This document shows positions 1 through 16,976 of a DNA stretch of 64,000 nt, piece after piece (positions within the stretch are counted from its first letter, which is position 1; every line of letters starts with the position of its first letter). The stretch spans positions 124,001 through 188,000 of the forward strand of contig NZ_PTIX01000012.1 of the NCBI RefSeq assembly GCF_002934265.1. Direction: 5' to 3'. Source of the DNA: Actinokineospora auranticolor (GTDB lineage Bacteria > Actinomycetota > Actinomycetes > Mycobacteriales > Pseudonocardiaceae). The translations under genes and the position numbers were made by a program. Below the pieces are notes generated by a model. That model ran no database searches. It saw only the letters and a list, made by a program, of their open reading frames with translations, and was not told the origin of the DNA.

Positions 1-314
1 CGCACCTTGTCCGGGTGCAGGCCGACCAGGTTCTGGCCGTCCAGCAGGATCTCGCCGGTGATCTTGGCGGTACCCGCCTTGTGCAGCCCCATGACCGACA
101 GGCTGGTCACGCTCTTGCCGGAGCCGGACTCGCCGACGATGCCCAGGGTGCGGCCGCGGTCGACGTCGAAGCTGAGGTTGTCGACCGACCGGACGACGCC
201 GTCGTCGGTCGGGAAGTGCACCCGCAGCTCGCGCACCTGGAGGAACGGTCCGCCCGCCGAGGCGGGTCGGGTCTCGACGCCGCCTTCGAGGCTGTTCTCG
301 GAAATCTGGCTCAC
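1..314 (-). CDS. Peptide ABC transporter ATP-binding protein (DppD/OppD type), N-terminal part only
   Basis: ATPase subunit expected to power uptake of di- or oligopeptides through the adjacent permeases. Only the first ~104 residues are in the window; the gene runs off the left edge. The Walker A motif GESGSGKS is at residues 61-68, followed by VTSLSVMGL, which is typical of the DppD/OppD branch. The GTG start overlaps the stop of the upstream permease gene (GTGA), indicating translational coupling. It is the fourth cistron of the operon read from 4255 leftward. The family call is firm; the transported substrate is inferred from the operon. Confidence 0.9.
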   Translation of the reverse strand, partial: MSQISENSLEGGVETRPASAGGPFLQVRELRVHFPTDDGVVRSVDNLSFDVDRGRTLGIVGESGSGKSVTSLSVMGLHKAGTAKITGEILLDGQNLVGLHPDKV

Positions 315-1336
315 TTTGCGCGCACCCTCGGGTCGACGACGGCGTAGAGGAGGTCAACGACCAGGTTGGCGATGACGACGAAGAACGCGGCGAGGATCGT
401 CACGCCCATGACCTTCGGCAGGTCGTAGTTGGTGATGCCCTCGATGGCGTACTTGCCCAGGCCCGGCAGGCCGAACGCGCTCTCGGTGAGCACCGCGCCG
501 CCGAGCAGCAGTCCGACGTCGAGGCCGAAGATGGTCAGGATCGGGGTGAGCGCGCCGCGCAGGCCGTGCCGGACCACCACCGTGCGCTCGGGCAGGCCCT
601 TGGCCCGCGCCGTGCGGATGAAGTCCTCGTTCATCGTCTCCAGCATCCCGGCCCGGGTGAGGCGGGCGTACTGGGCGGAGAACAGCAGGGCCAGGGTGAT
701 CCACGGCAGCAGCAGGTTGTACGCCCACTCCCCCGGGTCCTCGCCGAGCGGGACGAACCGACCGCCGGGGGCGGTCCAGCCCAGCGAGTAGCTGAAGATC
801 GACAGCGCCAGCACGCCGGTGAAGTAGATCGGCAGCGACACGCCCGCGAGCGAGACGCCCATCGCGAAGCGGTCGAAGATGGTGCCCTTGCGCAGCGCGG
901 ACAGGGTGCCGACGGCGATGCCGCCGAGCAGCCACAGGACCGCCGCGCCGACGGCCAGCGACAGCGTCACCGGCATCCGGTCGAGCAGGTCCGGCCACAC
1001 GGGCTGGTAGTTGCGGAACGAGTACCCCAGGCAGGGCGCCGGGCAGTGCTCGACGCCGGTGCCGTAGTTGAACTCGGCACCCGCGAAGATGCCCTTGAGC
1101 CAGTGCCAGTACTGCACCGGGATCGGGTCGTAGAACCCGAGGTTGTGCGCCGTCTCCCGGACGGTTTCCGCGGTGGCGGCCCGACCGACGTAGCGGGTGG
1201 CCAGCGTCTCCGGGGTGGCGCCGATCCACTTGGGCAGCACGAAGAAGATCGAGAACGTGACCGCGCTGACGATGATCAGCAGGACCAGCGCCGCGAAGAG
1301 CCGCCGGATGATGTATGTGATCACAGTGGCCGGCAC
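311..1336 (-). CDS. Peptide ABC transporter permease, DppB/OppB type
   Basis: Inner-membrane permease of 341 aa, the usual DppB length. The N-terminal helix (IIRRLFAALVLLIIVSAV) is typical of the family. The BPD_transp_1 region carries an EAA-like loop around TARAKGLPERTVVVRHGLRG, which docks the ATPase. The GTG at 1336 was chosen as start; an in-frame GTG at 1324 is possible. Neither has an obvious ribosome-binding site because a 15-bp hairpin (1338-1374) lies directly in front. The stop overlaps the start of the ATPase gene by 4 nt. It belongs to the same operon as the binding protein upstream. Confidence 0.9.
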   Translation of the reverse strand: MPATVITYIIRRLFAALVLLIIVSAVTFSIFFVLPKWIGATPETLATRYVGRAATAETVRETAHNLGFYDPIPVQYWHWLKGIFAGAEFNYGTGVEHCPAPCLGYSFRNYQPVWPDLLDRMPVTLSLAVGAAVLWLLGGIAVGTLSALRKGTIFDRFAMGVSLAGVSLPIYFTGVLALSIFSYSLGWTAPGGRFVPLGEDPGEWAYNLLLPWITLALLFSAQYARLTRAGMLETMNEDFIRTARAKGLPERTVVVRHGLRGALTPILTIFGLDVGLLLGGAVLTESAFGLPGLGKYAIEGITNYDLPKVMGVTILAAFFVVIANLVVDLLYAVVDPRVRAK

Positions 1337-1337
1337 C

Positions 1338-1374
1338 GGCGGCGGGCCGGGGAGGTCGTCCCCGGCCCGCCGCC
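1338..1374 (-). promoter_or_regulatory. Intercistronic hairpin between binding-protein and permease genes
   Basis: Perfect 15-bp inverted repeat, arms 1338-1352 and 1360-1374, loop 7 nt, no T tract. It lies 80 nt before the permease start in the transcript at its 5' arm and ends one base before the GTG at 1336. Such hairpins between abundant binding proteins and their permeases are known to protect the upstream mRNA or lower downstream expression. Here it should also hide the ribosome-binding region. Function is inferred. Confidence 0.6.
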
Positions 1375-1416
1375 TATCGCCTTCACCTGCCTAAATCCGA
1401 TGGGGTTTGCCGACGC

Positions 1417-3192
1417 CTACTGCACGCCGAGGGACAGGTAGTCGTACTGGCCGAAGGCCTCGCTGACGAACACGTTCGTCAGGCCCTTGCCGCGCAGCAG
1501 CAGGCTCTTGCCGTGCACGCCGGGCAGGATGACCGCCTCTTCCATGACGCGCTTGTCGATGGCGCCCCAGTCGGCCTCGCGCTTGGCCTTGTCGGTCTCG
1601 CCGATGGCCGCGTCGAGCATGGTGTCGACCTCGGGGACGCGCACCGAGAAGTTGGTGGAGCCACCGGTCTCCCGGATCACCCGGCTGTCGACGATCTCGG
1701 CGAGGAAGCCGTAGCCGTCCGCCCAGTCGGCCTGCCAGCCGTTCTGCGCGAGGCCGAGCTTGTTCGCCACGGTGTAGGGCGGGTTGCCCGCGAACTGCGC
1801 GAAGTAGTCGCCGCCGGGGTACGCCTTCAGGGTCAGCTTGATGCCGACCCGGCCCAGCGCCTGCTGCAGCGCCTCAGCGGTGGCCTTCTCGCGCGGCCGC
1901 TCCGAGCGGTAGGCGATGTTGGTCTCGAAGCCGTCGGGCTGGCCGCACTCGGCCAGCTTCTCCTTGGCCTTGGCCACGTCGCCCTTGTTGTCCGCGCCCG
2001 CCGGGTACAGGTCGAACTTCTGCGAGCCCGGGATCGACGGCGGGATCATCTGGGTGGCGATGTCACCGCCGGAGAACTGGCCGCCGAACGCGGTCTGGTA
2101 CGCGGTGCGGTCGGTGGCGTAGAGGACGGCCTCGCGGCACGCCTTCTTGTCCAGCGGCGCGACGGTCGGGTTGATGCTGGTGTACCACAGGCGCGTGGTC
2201 GACGGGTTGTCCGCGGTGGCCTTGAGCGCCGGGTCGCCGAGCACGCGGCTCAGCGAGGCCGCCTGCACACCGGTGCCCTGCACGTCCAGGTGCAGGTCGC
2301 CCTGGATGAGGCGGTTGTCGATGTCGTCGGCGTTGACATTCATCGAGACCTCGTAACCGTCCGGCAGCGCCTTGCGGTTCGGGTCGGTCGACGCGTCCCA
2401 CTGGTCGTTGCGGACCAGGGTGAAGCCCTTGTCGATCTCGTTCTTGTCGAACTTGTACGGGCCCGTGGAGACCACGTGCTCCTTGTACTTCTTGCCGGTG
2501 TCCTTGGCCTCGGGGACCGGGACGGTCTGCGGCAGCATGGCGAAGTAGTCGAACCCGCCGAACGGCTTCTTCAGGTGGAAGACGATCGTCTGGTCGTCCG
2601 GGGTCTCGATCGCCGAGTCGACGTTGACGCCCTTGTCCTTGTACGGGCCCTTGTAGCCCTCGGGGAACGCCAGGTTGCTCTTCAGGTAGGACGGTCCGTT
2701 GGGCAGGACCTCCTTGTCCGTGGACCGCAGCACCGCGTACTTGACGTCCTTCGAGGTGACGGCGCTGCCGTCCTCGTACTTGACGCCCTTGCGCAGCTTG
2801 TAGGTCCAGGTCTTGCCGCCGTCGCTCGGCACGCCGAGGCTCTCGGCCAGGTCGGGAACCAGTTCCTGGCTCGCCTTGCCGGGGCCGGGCTTGAACATCA
2901 CCAGCGCGCGGCCGTAGAGGCGGGCGAAGTTCCAGCTGTAGCCGTAGTAGGTGTCACCCGGGTCGACCGAGTCCCACTTGTCGGCGTTGGCCAGCTTGAT
3001 CACGCCCCCCTTCTTCTCGGAGGCGTTGAAGACACTGGTGAGTGCCGCGTTGAAGGCCGGGGTGCTGGTGCTGCCACCACCACCGCTACCGGGGTTGCTG
3101 CCGCCGCCGGTGCTCGTTCCGCCACAGGCGGAGAGCCCCATCACGACAGCCGCGCCCGCGGCGACCGCGGTGACCACGCGCTTGCTGTTCAT
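1417..3192 (-). CDS. Peptide ABC transporter substrate-binding lipoprotein (SBP family 5)
   Basis: Extracytoplasmic binding protein of 591 aa that would capture peptides or similar solutes for the permease pair. The start ATG at 3192 gives a classic lipoprotein signal: basic N-terminus, hydrophobic stretch and lipobox LSAC with the lipidated Cys at residue 23. A Gly/Ser-rich spacer follows. The segment with DLAESLGVPSDGGKTWTYKL is the hallmark of family 5 binding proteins (DppA/OppA). An in-frame extension up to 3261 has no signal-like start and was rejected. It lies between two permease genes, an unusual order, with 58 nt upstream and a strong hairpin downstream. Confidence 0.92.
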   Translation of the reverse strand: MNSKRVVTAVAAGAAVVMGLSACGGTSTGGGSNPGSGGGGSTSTPAFNAALTSVFNASEKKGGVIKLANADKWDSVDPGDTYYGYSWNFARLYGRALVMFKPGPGKASQELVPDLAESLGVPSDGGKTWTYKLRKGVKYEDGSAVTSKDVKYAVLRSTDKEVLPNGPSYLKSNLAFPEGYKGPYKDKGVNVDSAIETPDDQTIVFHLKKPFGGFDYFAMLPQTVPVPEAKDTGKKYKEHVVSTGPYKFDKNEIDKGFTLVRNDQWDASTDPNRKALPDGYEVSMNVNADDIDNRLIQGDLHLDVQGTGVQAASLSRVLGDPALKATADNPSTTRLWYTSINPTVAPLDKKACREAVLYATDRTAYQTAFGGQFSGGDIATQMIPPSIPGSQKFDLYPAGADNKGDVAKAKEKLAECGQPDGFETNIAYRSERPREKATAEALQQALGRVGIKLTLKAYPGGDYFAQFAGNPPYTVANKLGLAQNGWQADWADGYGFLAEIVDSRVIRETGGSTNFSVRVPEVDTMLDAAIGETDKAKREADWGAIDKRVMEEAVILPGVHGKSLLLRGKGLTNVFVSEAFGQYDYLSLGVQ

Positions 3193-3250
3193 AGTGCTGT
3201 TGCACCCTTTCTTTCCGAAGCGAATCGAGACACCGGTTGAGTGCGATTCC

Positions 3251-4255
3251 CTAGCGGGCACGAGGATCGAGGGCGTCGCGCAGTCCGTCGCCGAACAGGT
3301 TGAACGCGAGCACGGTGATGAAGATGGCGAGACCGGGCCAGAGCGCGAAGTGCGGCATCGTGTAGAAGCGCGAGGCCTCCGACAGCATGCCGCCCCAGGT
3401 GGCGGTCGGGGCGTTGATGCCGACCCCGAGGAAGGAGAGCGCGGACTCGAACAGGATGTTGGTCGGCACCAGCAGCGTGGCGTACACCAGGATCGGGGCG
3501 ACCAGGTTCGGCAGCAGCTCGCGGAAGAGGATGTACGGTCCGCGCGCGCCCAGGCTGCGGGCGGCGTCGACGAACTCCCGTTCGCGCAGCGACAGCGTCT
3601 GCCCGCGGACGATCCGGCCGATGTAGGGCCAGTTGAAGAAGCCGATGATGAAGATCAGCATCCCGATGCGCACCATCTCCGGCGAGAGGCCGAAGACCGA
3701 GTCGGGCAGCACGCCGACCAGCGCCATGGCGAACACCAGCAGCGGGAACGCCAGGAAGATGTCCATCGCGCGGCTGATGAGCGTGTCGACCCAGCCGCCG
3801 AAGAACCCGGCGATGACGCCGAGCGTGGTGCCGATGGCGACCGAGACCACGGTGGCCAGCAGCGCGATCAGCAGCGAGATCCAGGCGCCCGAGAAGATCC
3901 GGGCCAGCAGGTCGCGGCCGTTGACCGGCTCGATGCCCAGCGGGTGGTCGGGGCCCATGCCGCCGAAGAAGCCGATCGGCGCCAGGGTGCCGTTCTGGGT
4001 GTCGATGAGGTCCTGGTGGAACTCGTTGGGGTGTACCCAACCGAACACCCGGTCGGCGAGCAGGCCCGCGACGGCGAACAGGACCAGCAGGACGATGACG
4101 ATCGCGCCCGCGATGGCGACCTTGTCGCGCTTGAGCCGCAGCCACGCGATCTGACCGAGCGACCGGCCCTGGATGGCCTTGGCGCTCACGCCCTTGAGCG
4201 CGGCCTCCGGGTCCGCTTCGGCGGCCGATCCGGTGACCTCGGGAGGAGCCGTCAT
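3251..4255 (-). CDS. Peptide ABC transporter permease, DppC/OppC type
   Basis: Second permease (334 aa from the ATG at 4255; upstream in-frame starts to 4360 are less likely). It has the OppC_N-like segment (IAWLRLKRDKVAIAGAIVIV), the long periplasmic loop containing HPLGIEPVNGRDLLARI, and an EAA-like loop (EFVDAARSLGARG), in the order expected for DppC. It is the first cistron of the leftward operon, so its own upstream region (4256-4564) should hold the operon promoter. Gene order C-binding protein-B-ATPase differs from the common A-B-C-D arrangement. Confidence 0.9.
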   Translation of the reverse strand: MTAPPEVTGSAAEADPEAALKGVSAKAIQGRSLGQIAWLRLKRDKVAIAGAIVIVLLVLFAVAGLLADRVFGWVHPNEFHQDLIDTQNGTLAPIGFFGGMGPDHPLGIEPVNGRDLLARIFSGAWISLLIALLATVVSVAIGTTLGVIAGFFGGWVDTLISRAMDIFLAFPLLVFAMALVGVLPDSVFGLSPEMVRIGMLIFIIGFFNWPYIGRIVRGQTLSLREREFVDAARSLGARGPYILFRELLPNLVAPILVYATLLVPTNILFESALSFLGVGINAPTATWGGMLSEASRFYTMPHFALWPGLAIFITVLAFNLFGDGLRDALDPRAR

Positions 4256-4564
4256 GCCGCCGACCGTCCCCGTCCGGGCGTCTGCGCGACAAGTCGAGAG
4301 CGGCGCGATTCGCCGTTCTGTCGACCAAGTCGCGCGGATCGCTGGTAAGCCATCACGCACTCCTCGTGTCCGGTCTCACTGTCTCCGGGATCTCACCGTG
4401 TGGTGGCAGACCCTAGCCGCTCAGCTGTGCATCCCTCAGACACATGAGGTCACGATCCGGCCAACTGCCATACACAGAATCACCGAATCGCCACGGTGAC
4501 GACACGGCGCGTGACATTCGGGCGAGTTTTGTCCGCTGAACGGACGGACGACGACAGTGAGCGG
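4256..4564. other. Intergenic region upstream of the peptide importer operon
   Basis: 309 bases between the kinase stop (4565) and the importer start (4255), both on the minus strand. No protein-like reading frame is convincing. It should hold the importer promoter. A minus-strand TAGGGT near 4415 could serve as a -10 hexamer, but I see no matching -35 or clear operator. Confidence 0.4.
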
Positions 4565-5101
4565 TCACACAGTCACGCGGATCGACGCTCGGTGACGGGT
4601 CCGATCGACCGCGAACCACCCCTCCTCGAACCGCTGCCACCGCAGCAGCTCCGCCCGGGACGCCTCGCCGTCACGCGCGACGGCACGCGCCAACCGGGCC
4701 CGCGGATCAGCCAATTCGCACCAGAGCAGTGCGGACAGCTTGTCCGCTATGGACAGACGACCGGACGAGACACCTTCCAGCACCAGGGTGTCCACGAGGG
4801 GGATTTCCACCCAATCGCCCGGTTCGGGAATCCCGTTCCGCCAACGAACCCTTTGGTAGCGGCCGGGGTCGCCCGCGGCGAACGGATCCAGGACGCCGCG
4901 GGCCAGTCGCGGCCACCACGAGACGGGGTCGTCCCAGGTGGCGAACTCGTCGGTGGAGACGACGTGGGCGCCCGGGATCCGCGCGGCGAGGGTGCTCTTG
5001 CCCGAGCCGGAATGGCCGTCGACCGCGATGAGCCGCACGCCGCCCAGCCGGGGCGGGGCGCGGAGCAGGTCGAGCACCTCGGTGGGGCACTCCGTCCCCA
5101 C
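4565..5101 (-). CDS. P-loop kinase-like protein (uridine kinase-like fold)
   Basis: 178-aa soluble protein with Walker A GHSGSGKS at about residues 29-36 (VDGHSGSGKSTLAARI), a following DEF acidic motif and an ADPRARLARAVARD stretch resembling the lid of small-molecule kinases. The best resemblance is to uridine kinase/AAA-type short P-loop proteins; the phosphate acceptor cannot be told. The GTG start is 5 nt after the recR stop, so it is probably the last gene of the ybaB-recR operon. That pairing need not mean a DNA-repair role. Confidence 0.7.
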   Translation of the reverse strand: MGTECPTEVLDLLRAPPRLGGVRLIAVDGHSGSGKSTLAARIPGAHVVSTDEFATWDDPVSWWPRLARGVLDPFAAGDPGRYQRVRWRNGIPEPGDWVEIPLVDTLVLEGVSSGRLSIADKLSALLWCELADPRARLARAVARDGEASRAELLRWQRFEEGWFAVDRTRHRASIRVTV

Positions 5102-5106
5102 GGTGG

Positions 5107-5703
5107 TCAGACCGTGCGGCGGCCGGACAGCGCGCGGCCGAGGGTCAGCTCGTCGGCGAACTCCAGGTCACCGCCCATGGGCAGGCCGGAGGCCAGGCGG
5201 GTGACCGTCAGACCGGGGAAGTCGCGCAGCATCCGGACCAGGTAGGTCGCGGTGGCCTCGCCCTCGGTGTTCGGGTCCATGGCCAGGATGACCTCGGTGA
5301 TCTCCTGCGCGGAGATGCGGGAGAGCAGCTGGCGGATGCGCAGCTGCTCCGGGCCGACGCCGGAGAGCGGGTCGAGCGCGCCGCCGAGCACGTGGTAGCG
5401 GCCCTTGAACTCGCGGGTGCGCTCGATGGCCAGGACGTCCTTGGGCTCCTCCACCACGCAGACCGCGGTGGGGTCGCGCCGGGCGTCGCGGCAGATGCGG
5501 CAGGTGGTCTCCTCGGAGACGTTGCCGCAGACGTCGCAGAAGACCACGCCCTCCTTGACCTTCTGCAGCGCGTCCTGCAACCGGGACACGTCAGCCGGTT
5601 CGGCGGCGAGCAGGTGGAAGGCGATCCGCTGAGCGCTCTTCGGGCCGACGCCGGGCAGCCTGCCCAACTCGTCGATCAGGTCTTGGACCGGGCCCTCGTA
5701 CAA
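5107..5703 (-). CDS. recR: Recombination protein RecR
   Basis: 198 aa, the normal RecR length. The N-terminal helix-hairpin-helix is [20 protein letters not shown], followed by a four-Cys zinc motif ([19 protein letters not shown], residues ~55-73) and a Toprim domain starting at [14 protein letters not shown]. RecR acts with RecF and RecO to load RecA at gapped DNA. It lies directly after ybaB, the standard bacterial arrangement. The start leaves 7 nt to the ybaB stop. Confidence 0.97.
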
Positions 5704-8564: not shown

Positions 8565-9341
8565 TCTCCACCAGCAGCACGCCATTCGACGAGCCCGGCG
8601 CGAGCAACGACTGCAAGTGATCGTCCACCGCGAGCCCCAAAGGACGGCCCCCGCCTTTCCGCGGGTGTGTTCAGGTCGGTGTGCTCACGTTGACAGTGGC
8701 CCGCCGGAACATGAGTCACACGGTCGTGGCCGATCTTGTCGGCGTGAGTCAACCCACGGTCTCACGGGTCTTCCGTCGGTTCCTCCCACTGATCGGCCAA
8801 GCGTCATGCCTTCACGTCCCATCTTTTCCTGGGGTGTTGACCGGCCGCGTGGGGATCATCGACGGCACCCTGCTTCCCACGGGCGACCGCGCGGATCACA
8901 GGGACGACCACTCCGGAAAACGGCGCCGATCCGGGCCGAACGTCCAGGTCATGTCCGACCTCGACGGCCAACTCCTCGCGGTCTCCATGCCGACCAAGGG
9001 ATCCACCCCCGACCGGCGAGCATGCACAATCACCGGATGCGAGGATACGCTCGCCGAGTACGACATACTCGGCGACAAAGCCTATCGCGGCACGAGCGTG
9101 ATCGCGACCATTCAAAAACCGTACCGAGGCGACTTCTCACCCGGCCACATCGACCACAACCATCAACACTCGGCCAGACGAGCAGCGGTTGAACGATGCA
9201 TCGCCCATCTCAAACACCGGAAAATGACCTCAACCCGATATAGAGGCCCTTACAAGGAGTTCCCCGCGGTCATCCGGATCATCACAACACTCGAGTTCTA
9301 CCGACTCGGCTGGTAAGCCAGATGAATAGCGCTCTGAGTCA
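8565..9341 (+). mobile_element. Insertion-sequence remnant between NADAR gene and dnaX
   Basis: Span from the end of the NADAR gene to just past the transposase stop. The right end may be near 9341, where GAGCGCTATTCATCTGGCTT (minus strand, 9317-9336) looks like an IS terminus. No matching left inverted repeat is visible, in agreement with loss of the 5' part. Boundaries are estimates. Confidence 0.5.
8681..9316 (+). pseudogene. 5'-truncated IS5-like DDE transposase
   Basis: Remnant of an insertion-sequence transposase (about 211 aa open). It opens directly in the helix-turn-helix (VVADLVGVSQPTVSRVFRRF), without the ~50-80 residues that normally precede it. It then has the DDE pieces: GIIDGT, the STPDRRACT region, LGDKAYRG, and the AAVERCIAHLK block with the last acidic residue. 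The GTG at 8681 has no convincing ribosome-binding site. Local base use is less GC-rich than the neighbours. It sits between the NADAR gene and dnaX. Probably inactive. Confidence 0.75.
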
Positions 9342-12604: not shown

Positions 12605-13165
12605 TCAGTACGACGGCCGCAGCCACGCGGACGTGTTCGAGCCCGCGGCCTGGGCCAGGCTGATGGCCGGGATCGCGGTGAGCAGCAGCGCGCCGATGAT
12701 CGCCACAGCCTTGACCTGCTCGAACAGGTCGAAGTTGAACGTCGGGATGATGCTGAAGATGGCCAGGTAGACCAGGCCGATGACGATCTCGACGATGTTG
12801 CCGCCGATGAGCAGGCCCCTGCCGGTGCCCTTGAGCACCTGGGCACCGCCCACCGCCAGCAGGCCGACGCCCGCGAACTGGACCAGCACGATGAGCACGG
12901 CGACCGCGATGCCGTCGGACTTGCCGTCGAAGGCGCTGATCGCGATCAGCAGGGTCAGGATGCCGGTGATGGAGGCCTGCACGAAGGCCAGCACGGCGGC
13001 CGAGGTCGCCGAGCCGGGCCGCGACCGGGGACCGACCGCGCCGACCGGGTACTGACCGGGCGGTGGCGGCGCGGGGAAACCGCCAGTCTGCGGGTAGGCG
13101 GGGGGCTGCTGGGGGTATTGGGGCGGTTGCGGGTTGAAGTTTCCGCCGCTGTAGTCCTGCGTCAT
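12605..13165 (-). CDS. Small integral membrane protein with Pro/Gln-rich N-terminus
   Basis: 186 aa. The first ~50 residues are rich in Pro, Gln, Tyr and Gly (NPQPPQYPQQPPAYPQ), followed by about four hydrophobic segments: SAAVLAFVQASITGILTLLIA, IAVAVLIVLVQFAGVGLLAV, GLLIGGNIVEIVIGLVYLAI and AVAIIGALLLTAIPAISLAQ. This layout is common among actinobacterial membrane proteins of unknown function, some linked to growth-pole complexes. Divergent from the cyclase/VWA gene, with 203 bp between. Confidence 0.75.
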   Translation of the reverse strand: MTQDYSGGNFNPQPPQYPQQPPAYPQTGGFPAPPPPGQYPVGAVGPRSRPGSATSAAVLAFVQASITGILTLLIAISAFDGKSDGIAVAVLIVLVQFAGVGLLAVGGAQVLKGTGRGLLIGGNIVEIVIGLVYLAIFSIIPTFNFDLFEQVKAVAIIGALLLTAIPAISLAQAAGSNTSAWLRPSY

Positions 13166-13368: not shown

Positions 13369-15699
13369 ATGAGACGACCACAGGACCTGCACACGACCAT
13401 CCTCGCCGTCGACGTGGAGCGCTTCGGCGACCCGCGGCGCACCGACCGGGACCGGTCGATCGTGCGCGCGGGCCTGCACGACGCGCTGCGCCGGGCGATG
13501 GACCGCGCCCGGATCCCGTGGGGCGAGCACGAGAACACCGGCGACGGCCTGTTGATGCTGCTCTCCGGGGTGGCCAAGGGCGAGCTTGTCTCGTCGCTGC
13601 CGCACGAGCTGGCCGCCGCGCTGCGCGAGCACAACGCCGACCACAACCCCGAGGCGCGCATCCGGCTGCGGGTGGTGGTGCACGCGGGCGAGGTCGGCAC
13701 GGACGCCGAGGGGCGGGTCGGTAACGACCTCAACCACGCCTTCCGGCTGCTGGACTCGGCGGCCCTGCGCAAGGCGCTGGCCGACTCCCCCGGCGTGCTG
13801 GCGGTGGCGGTTTCGGACTGGTTCCACGAGCACGTGCTAAAGCACCAACCGGCCGCGAATCCGGCCATTTACCACCCGAGCACGGTGCGGAAGAAGGAAA
13901 CCCGGACCACCGCTTGGATCGCCACGCCGGACTACCCCACGATCCGCAGCACGCGACCAAAAGTGCATTTTCCTCACCTTAGAGTCCCGGCTTTGCCGAA
14001 GATTTCGTTGCCCAGGCCGAAATGGGAGCCGGTGGGGCTGGCGCTGCTGCTGTGCCTGGCGCTCACCACGAACGTGCTCGCCAGCGCCACCGCCCCCGTG
14101 GCCGCGTGCGCGAACCCGGTGCAGCTCAACGTGTTGACCTCCACCGAGCTGGCGCCGACGCTGCGGCAACTGGCGCTGGAGTTCGAGCGCGTCGCCAACC
14201 GCGCCGACGACGACGGCTGCCGCAAGGCGCGGGTGCTCGTCGTGGCCGACACCTACAGCGGCGCGGTGGACGCCCTGGGCCGCGGCTGGGCCGGGATCAA
14301 CGACGCGCGCGACCACGGTCCCGAGCCGCACGTGTGGATACCGGACTCCAGCACGGACGTCGCCCACGTCACGGCCCGCCTGGCGGCCGCGGCCGGGATC
14401 GGCGCCGTGCCGCAGCCGCGCCCGGGGATCGCCCGGTCGCCGCTGGTGCTGGCCGTGCCCCCGGACGTGGTCGGCGACCTGCGCCCCGACCGGCAGCGGT
14501 TCGACTGGGCGAGCGTCGACCGGGCGCGCGACACCATCGCCTTCGCCCGACCGGACCCGGACGCCTCCAGCGCGGGCATGCTGGCCACCATCGCGCTGTA
14601 CCGGCACCGGCTCGGGCGCGGCGTGCTGGACACCGCCGCCATGTCCGACGCCGACGTGCCCCGCCGGGCGCACGACGTCGAGCTGACCGTGCCCGCGACG
14701 GAGCAGGCGGACAGCGGCGCGCTGCTGTGCGCGTTGCGCTCCTCCCCCGGCCGGATGGCGGTGCTGGTGTCGGAGAAGGCCGCGCTGGACTACAACCGCG
14801 GCGCGCTGGTGAACACCCCGTGCGCGGGCACGAAGCCGGACCGGCCGCTGACGCTGCTGTACCCGAGGGACGGCACGCCGGTGCTGGACCACCCGTACGT
14901 GGTGATGCGGTGGACGGACCGGCCGGAGAACCCGCGCCGCGCCCAGGTCATCGACCAGTTCCACGGCTACCTGCTGGCGCGGGCGGCCCAGGAGACGCTG
15001 CGCAACGACGGATTCCGCAACGTCAACGGTCGTCCCGGCCCGTACGAGGGACCCGTGCAGGAGTGGCCCGCGGCGTTGGAGGTCGGCGCGGACACCGACG
15101 ACGAGGCCGTGCTGCGAACGGCGCGGAAGGCCCGCGTGCCCGCTCGTGTCCTCTTCGCGGTGGACACCGCGGCGTCGATGTCCCAACCGTCCGGCGACGG
15201 CACCCGCGGGCAGGCGGCGGCGAACGCGATCCGCGACCTGCTGCCGCTCTTCGGCGCGCGCGACGAGGTCGGTCTGGCCACGTCGTCCGGTGTGGTCGTC
15301 GAGCTCGGCAGGGGCAACTCGACGGCGGTGCGGTCCACACTGCGACCCACGCCGCCACCGTCCCCCGGCGCGACCGACGTCTACGGACTGCTCAACGCGG
15401 GTGTCGACCACCTTCGGGCCAAATCCGAACAGACGGACAACGACCTGCTCATCCTGTTCACCGACGGCGCCACCGCTAACCAGGCGCTGGTCGACCTGAC
15501 CGAGCTGAAAAGGCGGGTGTCCGCGCCGAGCCCGAGCACCGAGGTGCTGGTGGTGTCGCTGTCCACCGACCGCTGTTTCCTGACCGGGCTGCGCGAGGTG
15601 GCGGACGCGACCGGCGGCTGGTGCCTCGACGCCGCGGGCGCGGCCGCGCTCGCCGACCTCCCGTCCCGGGTGGCGGCCGGTCTCTGGAGGAGGGACTGA
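13369..15699 (+). CDS. Membrane protein: class III cyclase-homology domain + binding-protein-like domain + VWA domain
   Basis: 776 aa in three modules. Residues 1-~170 match a class III nucleotidyl cyclase domain: metal Asp15 in ILAVDVERFG, metal Asp59 in ENTGDGLLML, and Asn122/Arg126 in LNHAFRL, the transition-state pair. At the position of the purine-selecting Lys there is Glu55, as in guanylate cyclases. A membrane helix follows (~222-241, GLALLLCLALTTNVLASA). Then comes an extracellular domain like a solute-binding protein (~248-590) and a C-terminal VWA domain whose MIDAS reads D599-T-A-A-S603 (middle Ser lost) with TDGAT later. Start ATG 13369 has GGGAG upstream. The stop overlaps the next start by one base. 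No family with all parts is known to me. Confidence 0.75.
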   Translation: MRRPQDLHTTILAVDVERFGDPRRTDRDRSIVRAGLHDALRRAMDRARIPWGEHENTGDGLLMLLSGVAKGELVSSLPHELAAALREHNADHNPEARIRLRVVVHAGEVGTDAEGRVGNDLNHAFRLLDSAALRKALADSPGVLAVAVSDWFHEHVLKHQPAANPAIYHPSTVRKKETRTTAWIATPDYPTIRSTRPKVHFPHLRVPALPKISLPRPKWEPVGLALLLCLALTTNVLASATAPVAACANPVQLNVLTSTELAPTLRQLALEFERVANRADDDGCRKARVLVVADTYSGAVDALGRGWAGINDARDHGPEPHVWIPDSSTDVAHVTARLAAAAGIGAVPQPRPGIARSPLVLAVPPDVVGDLRPDRQRFDWASVDRARDTIAFARPDPDASSAGMLATIALYRHRLGRGVLDTAAMSDADVPRRAHDVELTVPATEQADSGALLCALRSSPGRMAVLVSEKAALDYNRGALVNTPCAGTKPDRPLTLLYPRDGTPVLDHPYVVMRWTDRPENPRRAQVIDQFHGYLLARAAQETLRNDGFRNVNGRPGPYEGPVQEWPAALEVGADTDDEAVLRTARKARVPARVLFAVDTAASMSQPSGDGTRGQAAANAIRDLLPLFGARDEVGLATSSGVVVELGRGNSTAVRSTLRPTPPPSPGATDVYGLLNAGVDHLRAKSEQTDNDLLILFTDGATANQALVDLTELKRRVSAPSPSTEVLVVSLSTDRCFLTGLREVADATGGWCLDAAGAAALADLPSRVAAGLWRRD

Positions 15700-16976
15700 T
15701 GATCAGGCTGCGCTACGCGGTGCTCGCGCTGGCGGCCACCGCCGGGCTGGTGGCGAGTTGCCTGGACTCGACCGGGCAGACCGACGACCGGGTGGACGCG
15801 CGCGGTCCGATCACGTTCGTCGACGGGCGGGACAACACCCGGGGCTCGCAGATCAAGCAGATGGTCGAGCGGTGGAACAACGGCCGCGGGTTCAAGGAGC
15901 AGGTGACGTTCGTCGAGCAGTCCCCGGCCTCCGACGCCCACCGCGCGTCGCTGGTGGCCGCGGCGGAGGACGTGGCGCTGCCGGGTTCGCGGAGCCGGTG
16001 CAACGACGTGATCATGGTGGACACGGTGTGGACGGCCGAGTTCGCCCGCGCCGGGTACCTGCGCCCGCTCAACGGCGCGGAGTTCGGCATCAACCGGTTC
16101 ATCGAGTCCGCGGTGGTCAACGCGACCGTGGACGGCACCCTGTACGCGATCCCCGCCCGCTCCGACGGCGGACTCATCTACTACCGCAAGGACATCCTCG
16201 ACGCGGAGCACCTGCCGCCGCCGAACACCTGGGCCGAACTGGCGGGGATGGCCAAGCGGCTGGGGCGCGCGCACGGCATCGGCGGCTACGTCGGCCAACT
16301 CGCCCGCTACGAGGGCCTGACGGTGAACGCGATGGAGGCGATCTGGGCGGCGGGCGGCAACCTGGTCGGCTCGGACGGTCGCATCGCGATCGACTCGCCG
16401 CAGGCCAAGGCCGGGGTGCGGACGCTGGCCGCGGGGTTGAGCGAGGGCTGGATCCCGCGCGAGACAACGGGGTTCGCCGAGGAGGAGAGCAGGCGGTACT
16501 TCCAGGAGGGGAAGGCGCTGTTCCTCCGCAACTGGTCCTACGCGTACCCGCTGCTGAACGCGCCGGGGTCGCCGGTGGCGGGCAAGGTCGGTGTCACCTG
16601 GCTGTCCAGCCCGAGCGCGCTCGGCGGGTGGAACGCGGCGATCTCGCCGTGTTCGCGCCACCAGCGCACGGCCCGCGACTTCATCCGGTTCCTGACCAGT
16701 GAGGACGAGCAGCGCGCGCTGTTCACCGAAGGCGGTTTCGCGCCGTCGGTGAAGAGCCTATACCAGGACCCGATGCTGCTCAGCCAGTACCCGCACCTGG
16801 GCGTGCTGTACGGCAGCATCCGCGGCGCGCTCGACCGGGTGCGGACCCCGGACTACGACCGCGTCTCGGACATGATGCAGGAAAGCCTCCACCGGGCGCT
16901 GGACCGCGTGGTAGCGGTCGACCCGACAATGGACGGCCTGGCCGAGGAGATGCGTTCCACGCTGCACAGCGGATAG
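15699..16976 (+). CDS. Extracellular solute-binding lipoprotein (family 1-like), without permease genes
   Basis: 425 aa. Lipoprotein signal with VASC lipobox (Cys21) right after the ATG at 15699, which shares a base with the stop of the upstream cyclase/VWA gene (TGATG). The mature part resembles sugar-type binding proteins: ITFVDGRDNTRGSQIKQMVE near the start, GLIYYRKDILDAEHLPPPNT, and TARDFIRFLTSEDEQRALF in the hinge/C-lobe. No ABC permease or ATPase lies nearby, so it is more likely a partner of the upstream membrane protein (ligand presentation or sensing) than part of an importer. Confidence 0.8.
   Translation: MIRLRYAVLALAATAGLVASCLDSTGQTDDRVDARGPITFVDGRDNTRGSQIKQMVERWNNGRGFKEQVTFVEQSPASDAHRASLVAAAEDVALPGSRSRCNDVIMVDTVWTAEFARAGYLRPLNGAEFGINRFIESAVVNATVDGTLYAIPARSDGGLIYYRKDILDAEHLPPPNTWAELAGMAKRLGRAHGIGGYVGQLARYEGLTVNAMEAIWAAGGNLVGSDGRIAIDSPQAKAGVRTLAAGLSEGWIPRETTGFAEEESRRYFQEGKALFLRNWSYAYPLLNAPGSPVAGKVGVTWLSSPSALGGWNAAISPCSRHQRTARDFIRFLTSEDEQRALFTEGGFAPSVKSLYQDPMLLSQYPHLGVLYGSIRGALDRVRTPDYDRVSDMMQESLHRALDRVVAVDPTMDGLAEEMRSTLHSG

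Follow-up and report, generated by a model that had tools for sequence, protein, structure and literature searches.

Can a bacterial membrane protein with a nucleotidyl cyclase domain at one end and binding-protein parts at the other serve as a single-pass receptor? The question is raised by a gene pair of Actinokineospora auranticolor in a 64,000-nucleotide stretch of contig NZ_PTIX01000012.1 (the window, in whose coordinates the pair is described). The first gene encodes a 776-residue fusion of a class III cyclase domain, one transmembrane helix, a substrate-binding protein (SBP) domain and a VWA-like domain, and the second encodes a separate SBP lipoprotein. The pair is probably a two-gene, single-pass receptor cyclase in which the ectodomain and lipoprotein would do the sensing. 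Its inner domain would be an exchangeable output, because the outer pair, judged from sequence, is a module that occurs with a cyclase, a caspase-like or a trypsin-like peptidase, or no inner enzyme. The parts of the unit are as follows.

13369..15699, + strand: 776-residue fusion (class III cyclase domain, single transmembrane helix, SBP domain, VWA-like domain)
13369..13938, + strand: class III nucleotidyl cyclase domain, predicted to be cytosolic (residues 1-190)
14032..14088, + strand: transmembrane helix, N-terminus predicted inside (residues 222-240; hydropathy 2.03)
14125..15018, + strand: SBP_bac_11-type domain, predicted to be extracytoplasmic (residues 253-550; Pfam PF13531, E 4.6e-12)
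15148..15468, + strand: VWA-like domain (VWA_2), predicted to be extracytoplasmic (hidden Markov model [HMM] span 594-700; Pfam PF13519, E 6.5e-6)
15699..16976, + strand: partner SBP lipoprotein, 425 residues (PF01547, SBP_bac_1, E 9.3e-26)

The cyclase domain and the topology of the fusion

The original prediction had read residues 1-170 as a cyclase fold and had staked that reading on a structural match, which a fold search found. The best profile match of the domain in the PDB is a natriuretic peptide receptor (E 1.1e-6). The HMM comparison proposed at the same time had a divided outcome: SBP families match (PF13531, residues 253-550), but residues 1-200 have no Pfam match, and none of Pfam, NCBIfam and PADLOC matched the cyclase part. 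We ascribe these missing matches to a lack of sensitivity, because profile and fold searches do match cyclases. The catalytic positions are given below with their retention among 53 cyclase-like domains, which are those read from an early set of fetched loci rather than every profile match and include one degenerate second domain of a single protein (L067), and among the 13 cyclase-SBP fusions found.

13411..13413, + strand: Asp15, first metal-binding Asp (53/53 domains; 13/13 fusions)
13531..13533, + strand: Glu55, substrate-base position (33/53 domains; 13/13 fusions)
13543..13545, + strand: Asp59, second metal-binding Asp (52/53 domains; 13/13 fusions)
13711..13713, + strand: Gly115, second substrate-base position, equivalent to Ma1120 Asp157 (50/53 domains; 13/13 fusions)
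13732..13734, + strand: Asn122, transition-state Asn position, equivalent to Ma1120 Ala164 (25/53 domains; 6/13 fusions)
13744..13746, + strand: Arg126, transition-state Arg, equivalent to Ma1120 Arg168 (52/53 domains; 13/13 fusions)

Alignment, by which the two metal-binding Asp were assigned, confirms these residues together with the Asn and Arg that had been picked out in the window protein. The substrate-base position carries Glu in guanylyl cyclases and Lys in adenylyl cyclases, and Glu55, previously proposed to be of the guanylyl type, shares its alignment column with a Glu in natriuretic peptide receptor 1 and in the mutant Ma1120 chain 5d0g. Glu combined with Gly or Cys at the base positions marks the guanylyl subtype, and the window protein has E55 and G115. 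In Ma1120, residue 157 is Asp in the wild type and Gly in GTP-leaning mutants; the changes K101E and D157G raised guanylyl cyclase activity, and a triple mutant (K101E, D157G, A167Y; Glu/Gly/Tyr) is described as using ATP and GTP about equally (PMC4215837). The matched chains of Ma1120 and Cya2 have neither SBP nor VWA, and the window protein also differs from them at the third base position, where it has Phe and not Tyr; F125 is kept in 12 of the 13 fusions. Because the catalytic residues other than Asn122 are kept in all the fusions, and in view of the activity of Ma1120 with Ala at the Asn position and of the behavior of its mutants, we predict an active cyclase able to use GTP, with ATP as a further possible substrate. 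The L067 protein mentioned above has two cyclase-like domains in one frame (4616-5140 and 4007-4546), and the degenerate one carries Glu at the places of D59 and R126.

The 30 residues on the N-terminal side of the helix in the window fusion have a net charge of +6 and the 30 that follow it a net charge of 0, and the protein has no Cys before the helix and six after it. All 12 cyclase fusions tested (12 of the 13, L129 being left out) likewise have positive charge ahead of the helix and six Cys behind it. From this charge bias and Cys distribution, the cyclase-like part should lie inside and the SBP and VWA-like parts outside, in agreement with the orientation originally proposed. About 30 residues separate the cyclase domain from the helix, with no Pfam kinase match.

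The assignment of a VWA domain holds in part. The VWA_2 match is borderline, at 0.2 bits over the Pfam cut-off, and the C-terminal part of the protein extends to residue 776. The metal motif is not intact: it reads DTAAS in the window, which is degenerate relative to the DxSxS of the metal ion-dependent adhesion site type, and an intact DxSxS at that place occurs in 0 of 13 cyclase fusions versus 18 of 19 non-cyclase forms. The motif stretch is shortened in all six cyclase fusions of genus g22. The lone non-cyclase exception (L128, from the Actinokineospora genome G001) has DTSER without any cyclase attached.

Distribution of the pair and exchange of the inner domain

The stop of the fusion gene and the start of the lipoprotein gene overlap as TGATG, both on the + strand, and the lipoprotein opens, by reading of its sequence, with a signal segment and the lipobox VASC (Cys21). 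The coupling to a stand-alone SBP that was predicted from this overlap extends beyond the window, as the partner gene adjoins the fusion in 13 of 13 cyclase fusions, spread over three genera of the window's order. The window genome and 5 of its 15 genus-mates have the full fusion, followed in each by the lipoprotein gene, and Actinokineospora enzanensis and A. terrae are among the carriers; the other 7 of the 13 lie outside the genus, in g22 (G036, G073, G344, G362, G439, G863) and g32 (G835). Within the genus, identity is 68-71% for the cyclase part, 56-62% for the SBP domain, 42-44% for the VWA domain and 63-65% for the partner. The outer parts of the g22 and g32 fusions are recognized by our own ectodomain profile, A4, whose rows include L078 and L079 but none of the other g22 and g32 proteins, which score 169-309 bits. 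In the genome samples searched, no unit came to light outside the window's order; few candidates were scored per genome (seven in the search for genus members and fusions, four in the partner-SBP search of the order). When the partner-SBP profile was run against the phylum (396 genomes, E <= 1e-115), it retrieved the window unit and six stand-alone SBPs of one other genus (f18/g109, Streptomyces-like by guess), 0/6 of which have an SBP-VWA neighbor.

In 6 of 6 Actinokineospora carriers the fusion sits after a gene pair that we take to be dnaX and an LLM oxidoreductase; these names, like pepP, DUF2786 and aceE for other neighbors, are our reading of the sequences only. The ten genus members without a match keep the LLM gene, with dnaX beside it in nine (not in G001). 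The slot after dnaX-LLM looks like a variable site, because a genus-mate without the unit has other accessory genes there, read as radical-SAM-like and ATPase-like ORFs (open reading frames; L183, 5829-9559). G001 has a helix-only SBP-VWA and SBP pair at a different place (L128). In the window, a transposase-like ORF (8681-9316), again by reading, adjoins dnaX.

The inner domain changes while the outer pair stays. The partner-SBP profile was searched in 397 genomes of the order and the 24 top loci were taken (L098-L121), 8 of which were rows of the profile and 16 not. An SBP-VWA ORF is adjacent in 24 of 24, as against 0 of the next 6 loci fetched. The inner domain is a cyclase in seven loci, a caspase in three, trypsin-like in four and membrane helices only in nine, a class judged by length and reading with Pfam run on one member (L128); one locus is unread because its contig starts inside it. 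Pfam identified caspase (Peptidase_C14; E 5.5e-18 and 4.3e-17) in two of the three caspase forms, the two tested, and Trypsin_2 (E 6.1e-11 and 8.2e-12) in two of the four trypsin forms, again the two tested. The caspase His/Cys motifs are present in 3/3 forms and, by reading, the trypsin His/Asp/Ser motifs in 4/4. Each of these peptidase forms (L131-L133 and L135-L138, all outside the window) has an SBP partner gene and a transmembrane-SBP-VWA ectodomain that scores 300-382 bits against profile A4. An EACC1-like ORF lies upstream of two caspase forms (E 8.3e-6, above the cut-off, and 8.7e-4, below it), and a Trypco1 ORF upstream of the two trypsin forms tested (E 3.3e-29 and 1.4e-28). By a crude gene caller, with no HMM search of that region, no small partner ORF was found directly upstream of the other cyclase fusions examined on the same strand; in the window just 203 bases separate a divergent ORF (12605-13165) from the fusion start at 13369, and there is no EACC1 gene. 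The three-part fusion that was first described is real, but a cyclase is not the only enzyme joined to this ectodomain, which carries three or more kinds of inner domain.

A tree of 32 partner SBPs, with three ATP-binding cassette (ABC) SBPs as the outgroup, requires 3 changes among the four inner-domain states, the minimum possible; with the unread row as a fifth label it requires 4, versus a shuffled mean of 15.8. On this count, partner and inner-domain type have traveled together; a single origin for each inner-domain type is compatible with the tree but is not proved by it. L139, the unread row, lies within the helix-only group, which for that reason takes two changes. The 13 cyclase-type partners group with support of 100/100 relative to other types and of 89/84 as a clade with the ABC outgroup, a grouping that may be compatible with separate fusions. 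In the tree of cyclase domains the Actinokineospora fusions form one clade and the g22 fusions another, with no supported order between them. The partner SBPs form a clade apart from the three ABC SBPs, whose loci show, by reading, permease-like ORFs next door. Bit score alone fails to make this separation, since an ordinary ABC SBP (G344:C1:2152608 in L144, permease-like ORF next door) scores 393.0 bits versus 393.5 for the weakest partner, from G097.

Known systems and competing explanations

Animal receptor guanylyl cyclases resemble the window protein in having a single transmembrane helix with a class III guanylyl-type cyclase inside, and those of the natriuretic peptide type have a binding-protein-like ectodomain. 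The comparison, which is of domain makeup rather than of SBP fold, makes no case for common descent of the whole architecture; in the window protein the order is reversed, with the cyclase N-terminal, there is no kinase homology domain, and a second SBP serves as partner. Among actinobacteria, GlnH-GlnX-PknG already offers an SBP lipoprotein that is proposed to signal by way of a membrane protein instead of feeding a permease; that system, however, consists of three proteins, its membrane protein contains four-helix sensor bundles and its output is a kinase (PMC6069109). The DUF2652 proteins are likewise uncharacterized bacterial relatives of class III cyclases, many of them actinobacterial, but are nearly all single-domain and soluble (PMC4886424), and the window protein has no such Pfam match.

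The main ingredients are already named in the text on System 4 of Kaur et al. (2020). That membrane-associated actinobacterial system pairs EACC1 with a caspase, sometimes displaced by a cyclic nucleotide (cNMP) cyclase, and includes instances in which transmembrane helices with an extracellular periplasmic-binding-protein (PBP) domain follow the caspase (PMC7159879). The window unit matches it in having, in place of a caspase, an N-terminal cyclase ahead of a transmembrane helix and a binding-protein domain predicted to be extracellular. It differs in that EACC1 is missing, a VWA-like domain is present and a further gene encodes an SBP lipoprotein, and the section's text describes neither an SBP partner nor an ectodomain common to cyclase, caspase and trypsin forms (PMC7159879). 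The wider cyclase family keeps the company described by these authors (PMC7159879). Ten relatives scanned with Pfam divide into three without a partner domain and seven with one, namely NB-ARC/TPR, a weak NACHT/nSTAND match, nSTAND1/WD40, VMAP, EAD2 (two) and a ricin-B-type lectin; paralogues of the cyclase, one with an NB-ARC-like part by reading, occur in the window genome. The lectin-bearing member of the family (L069, 3044-4579; Pfam E 1.4e-7) has one hydrophobic helix, and its lectin is a possible extracellular binding part. As to novelty, the claim of no earlier description survives for the complete cyclase-transmembrane-SBP-VWA protein with its SBP partner, of which we found no description in open-access full text, nor did we find there the three-way swap on one ectodomain; it does not extend to cyclases that displace caspases or to transmembrane-PBP tails, both reported by Kaur et al. 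(PMC7159879).

The main rival to a receptor cyclase follows from that work: the N-terminal enzyme would be a switch, and the SBP-VWA/SBP ectodomain, as the variable part, would be an effector directed at the envelope or at an invader once the inner domain fires, not a sensor. Kaur's systems contain the inner domains found here (cyclase; caspase with EACC1; trypsin with Trypco1; PMC7159879), and the seven partner-bearing relatives favor the same view. Against it, the constant element here is the outer SBP-VWA with its partner and the variable element is the inner enzyme, and the nine helix-only loci of the 24 have the ectodomain pair without any inner enzyme. In view of this constancy outside and variation inside, we rank it below the receptor reading and consider it unlikely; binding proteins are also not known to have a toxic action. 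A cyclase domain that no longer forms a product, and that governs an adhesion or nutrient-capture complex of the envelope just by binding a nucleotide, is rather improbable. In its favor, some of the vWA-linked cyclases reported by Kaur et al. are catalytically inactive (PMC7159879), and Asn122 is not kept in 7 of the 13 fusions. Against it, all 13 retain Glu55, Gly115, the Arg and both metal-binding Asp, and active cyclases without the Asn exist, namely Ma1120, active with Ala164 at that position (PMC4215837), and Rv1900c, as told in PMC4886424.

A pyrimidine cyclase making cUMP or cCMP, as a membrane relative of Pycsar, is very unlikely: PADLOC gave no match for the fusion protein, the Glu/Gly pair is of the guanylyl type whereas described PycC enzymes use Y50/D94/R97, F60/K104/F109 or F100/R142/Q144 (PMC11224242), and no PycTM or PycTIR partner was noticed among the neighbors, which were not scanned one by one. 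Plain nutrient uptake, with the lipoprotein as an orphan ABC binding protein for a distant permease and the fusion as an accessory, we regard as scarcely credible. SBP_bac_1 is typical of ABC systems, and an oligopeptide-type ABC cluster, by reading, lies about 10 kb upstream on the opposite strand (window 3-3261); yet no permease or ATPase was read among the window ORFs beside the pair, a result obtained without a family search of the neighbors, and the partners stand apart in the tree from the ABC SBPs with their permease-like neighbors.

Several observations weigh against the receptor cyclase that we favor. For Kaur et al., the enzyme at the N-terminus deploys such C-terminal parts as its effectors, which is the opposite direction (PMC7159879). 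The transition-state Asn is retained in just 6 of 13 fusions, and the unit is patchy, with 10 of 16 genus members showing no match over the sequence read, which in G003 covers just 2.7 kb before the contig ends. Pfam finds no SBP or VWA in the g22 fusion L078, and in fusion L130 nothing more than an SBP match below the cut-off; the caspase form L132 likewise has its SBP match below the cut-off, and L133 and L135 have none. Pfam is weak on the outer parts of these relatives, and the claim of one shared ectodomain rests on profile A4 and the partner gene. No cyclic-nucleotide receptor was noticed on reading the genes beside the pair, where no search for one was made, and the full-length model of the fusion (predicted template modeling score, pTM, 0.32) is too weak for use and uninformative on domain packing. 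Activity, ligand and interaction are themselves predictions from sequence.

A candidate class of modular receptors

A receptor cyclase of this kind would work as follows. The SBP-VWA ectodomain and the separately encoded SBP lipoprotein would form an extracytoplasmic ligand-sensing complex. When a ligand makes the two binding proteins close or associate, the change would travel along the single helix to the class III cyclase domain inside, which would act as a homodimer and produce a cyclic nucleotide from GTP and/or ATP. The steps of ligand binding, contact between the two SBPs and signaling from outside to inside are all conditional here. A role in stress or defense signaling may be suggested by analogy, because of the company kept by the cyclase family and by the peptidase counterparts.

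More tentatively, and at somewhat less than even confidence, the pair could represent a modular class of actinobacterial receptors in which a two-SBP/VWA sensor is joined, in a single chain, to one of three interchangeable cytosolic enzymes. In such a class the cyclase form would correspond, in bacteria, to receptor guanylyl cyclases, and the forms with a protease would be death or defense receptors gated by a ligand. If so, one conserved outer sensor would be naturally wired to a cyclase, a caspase or a trypsin, and the ligand and logic of one form would inform the others. The class would then open a direct route to the question of what Kaur-type conflict systems sense with their extracellular parts, and would provide a small bacterial model of receptor cyclases in which a ligand outside gates a dimeric cyclase within.

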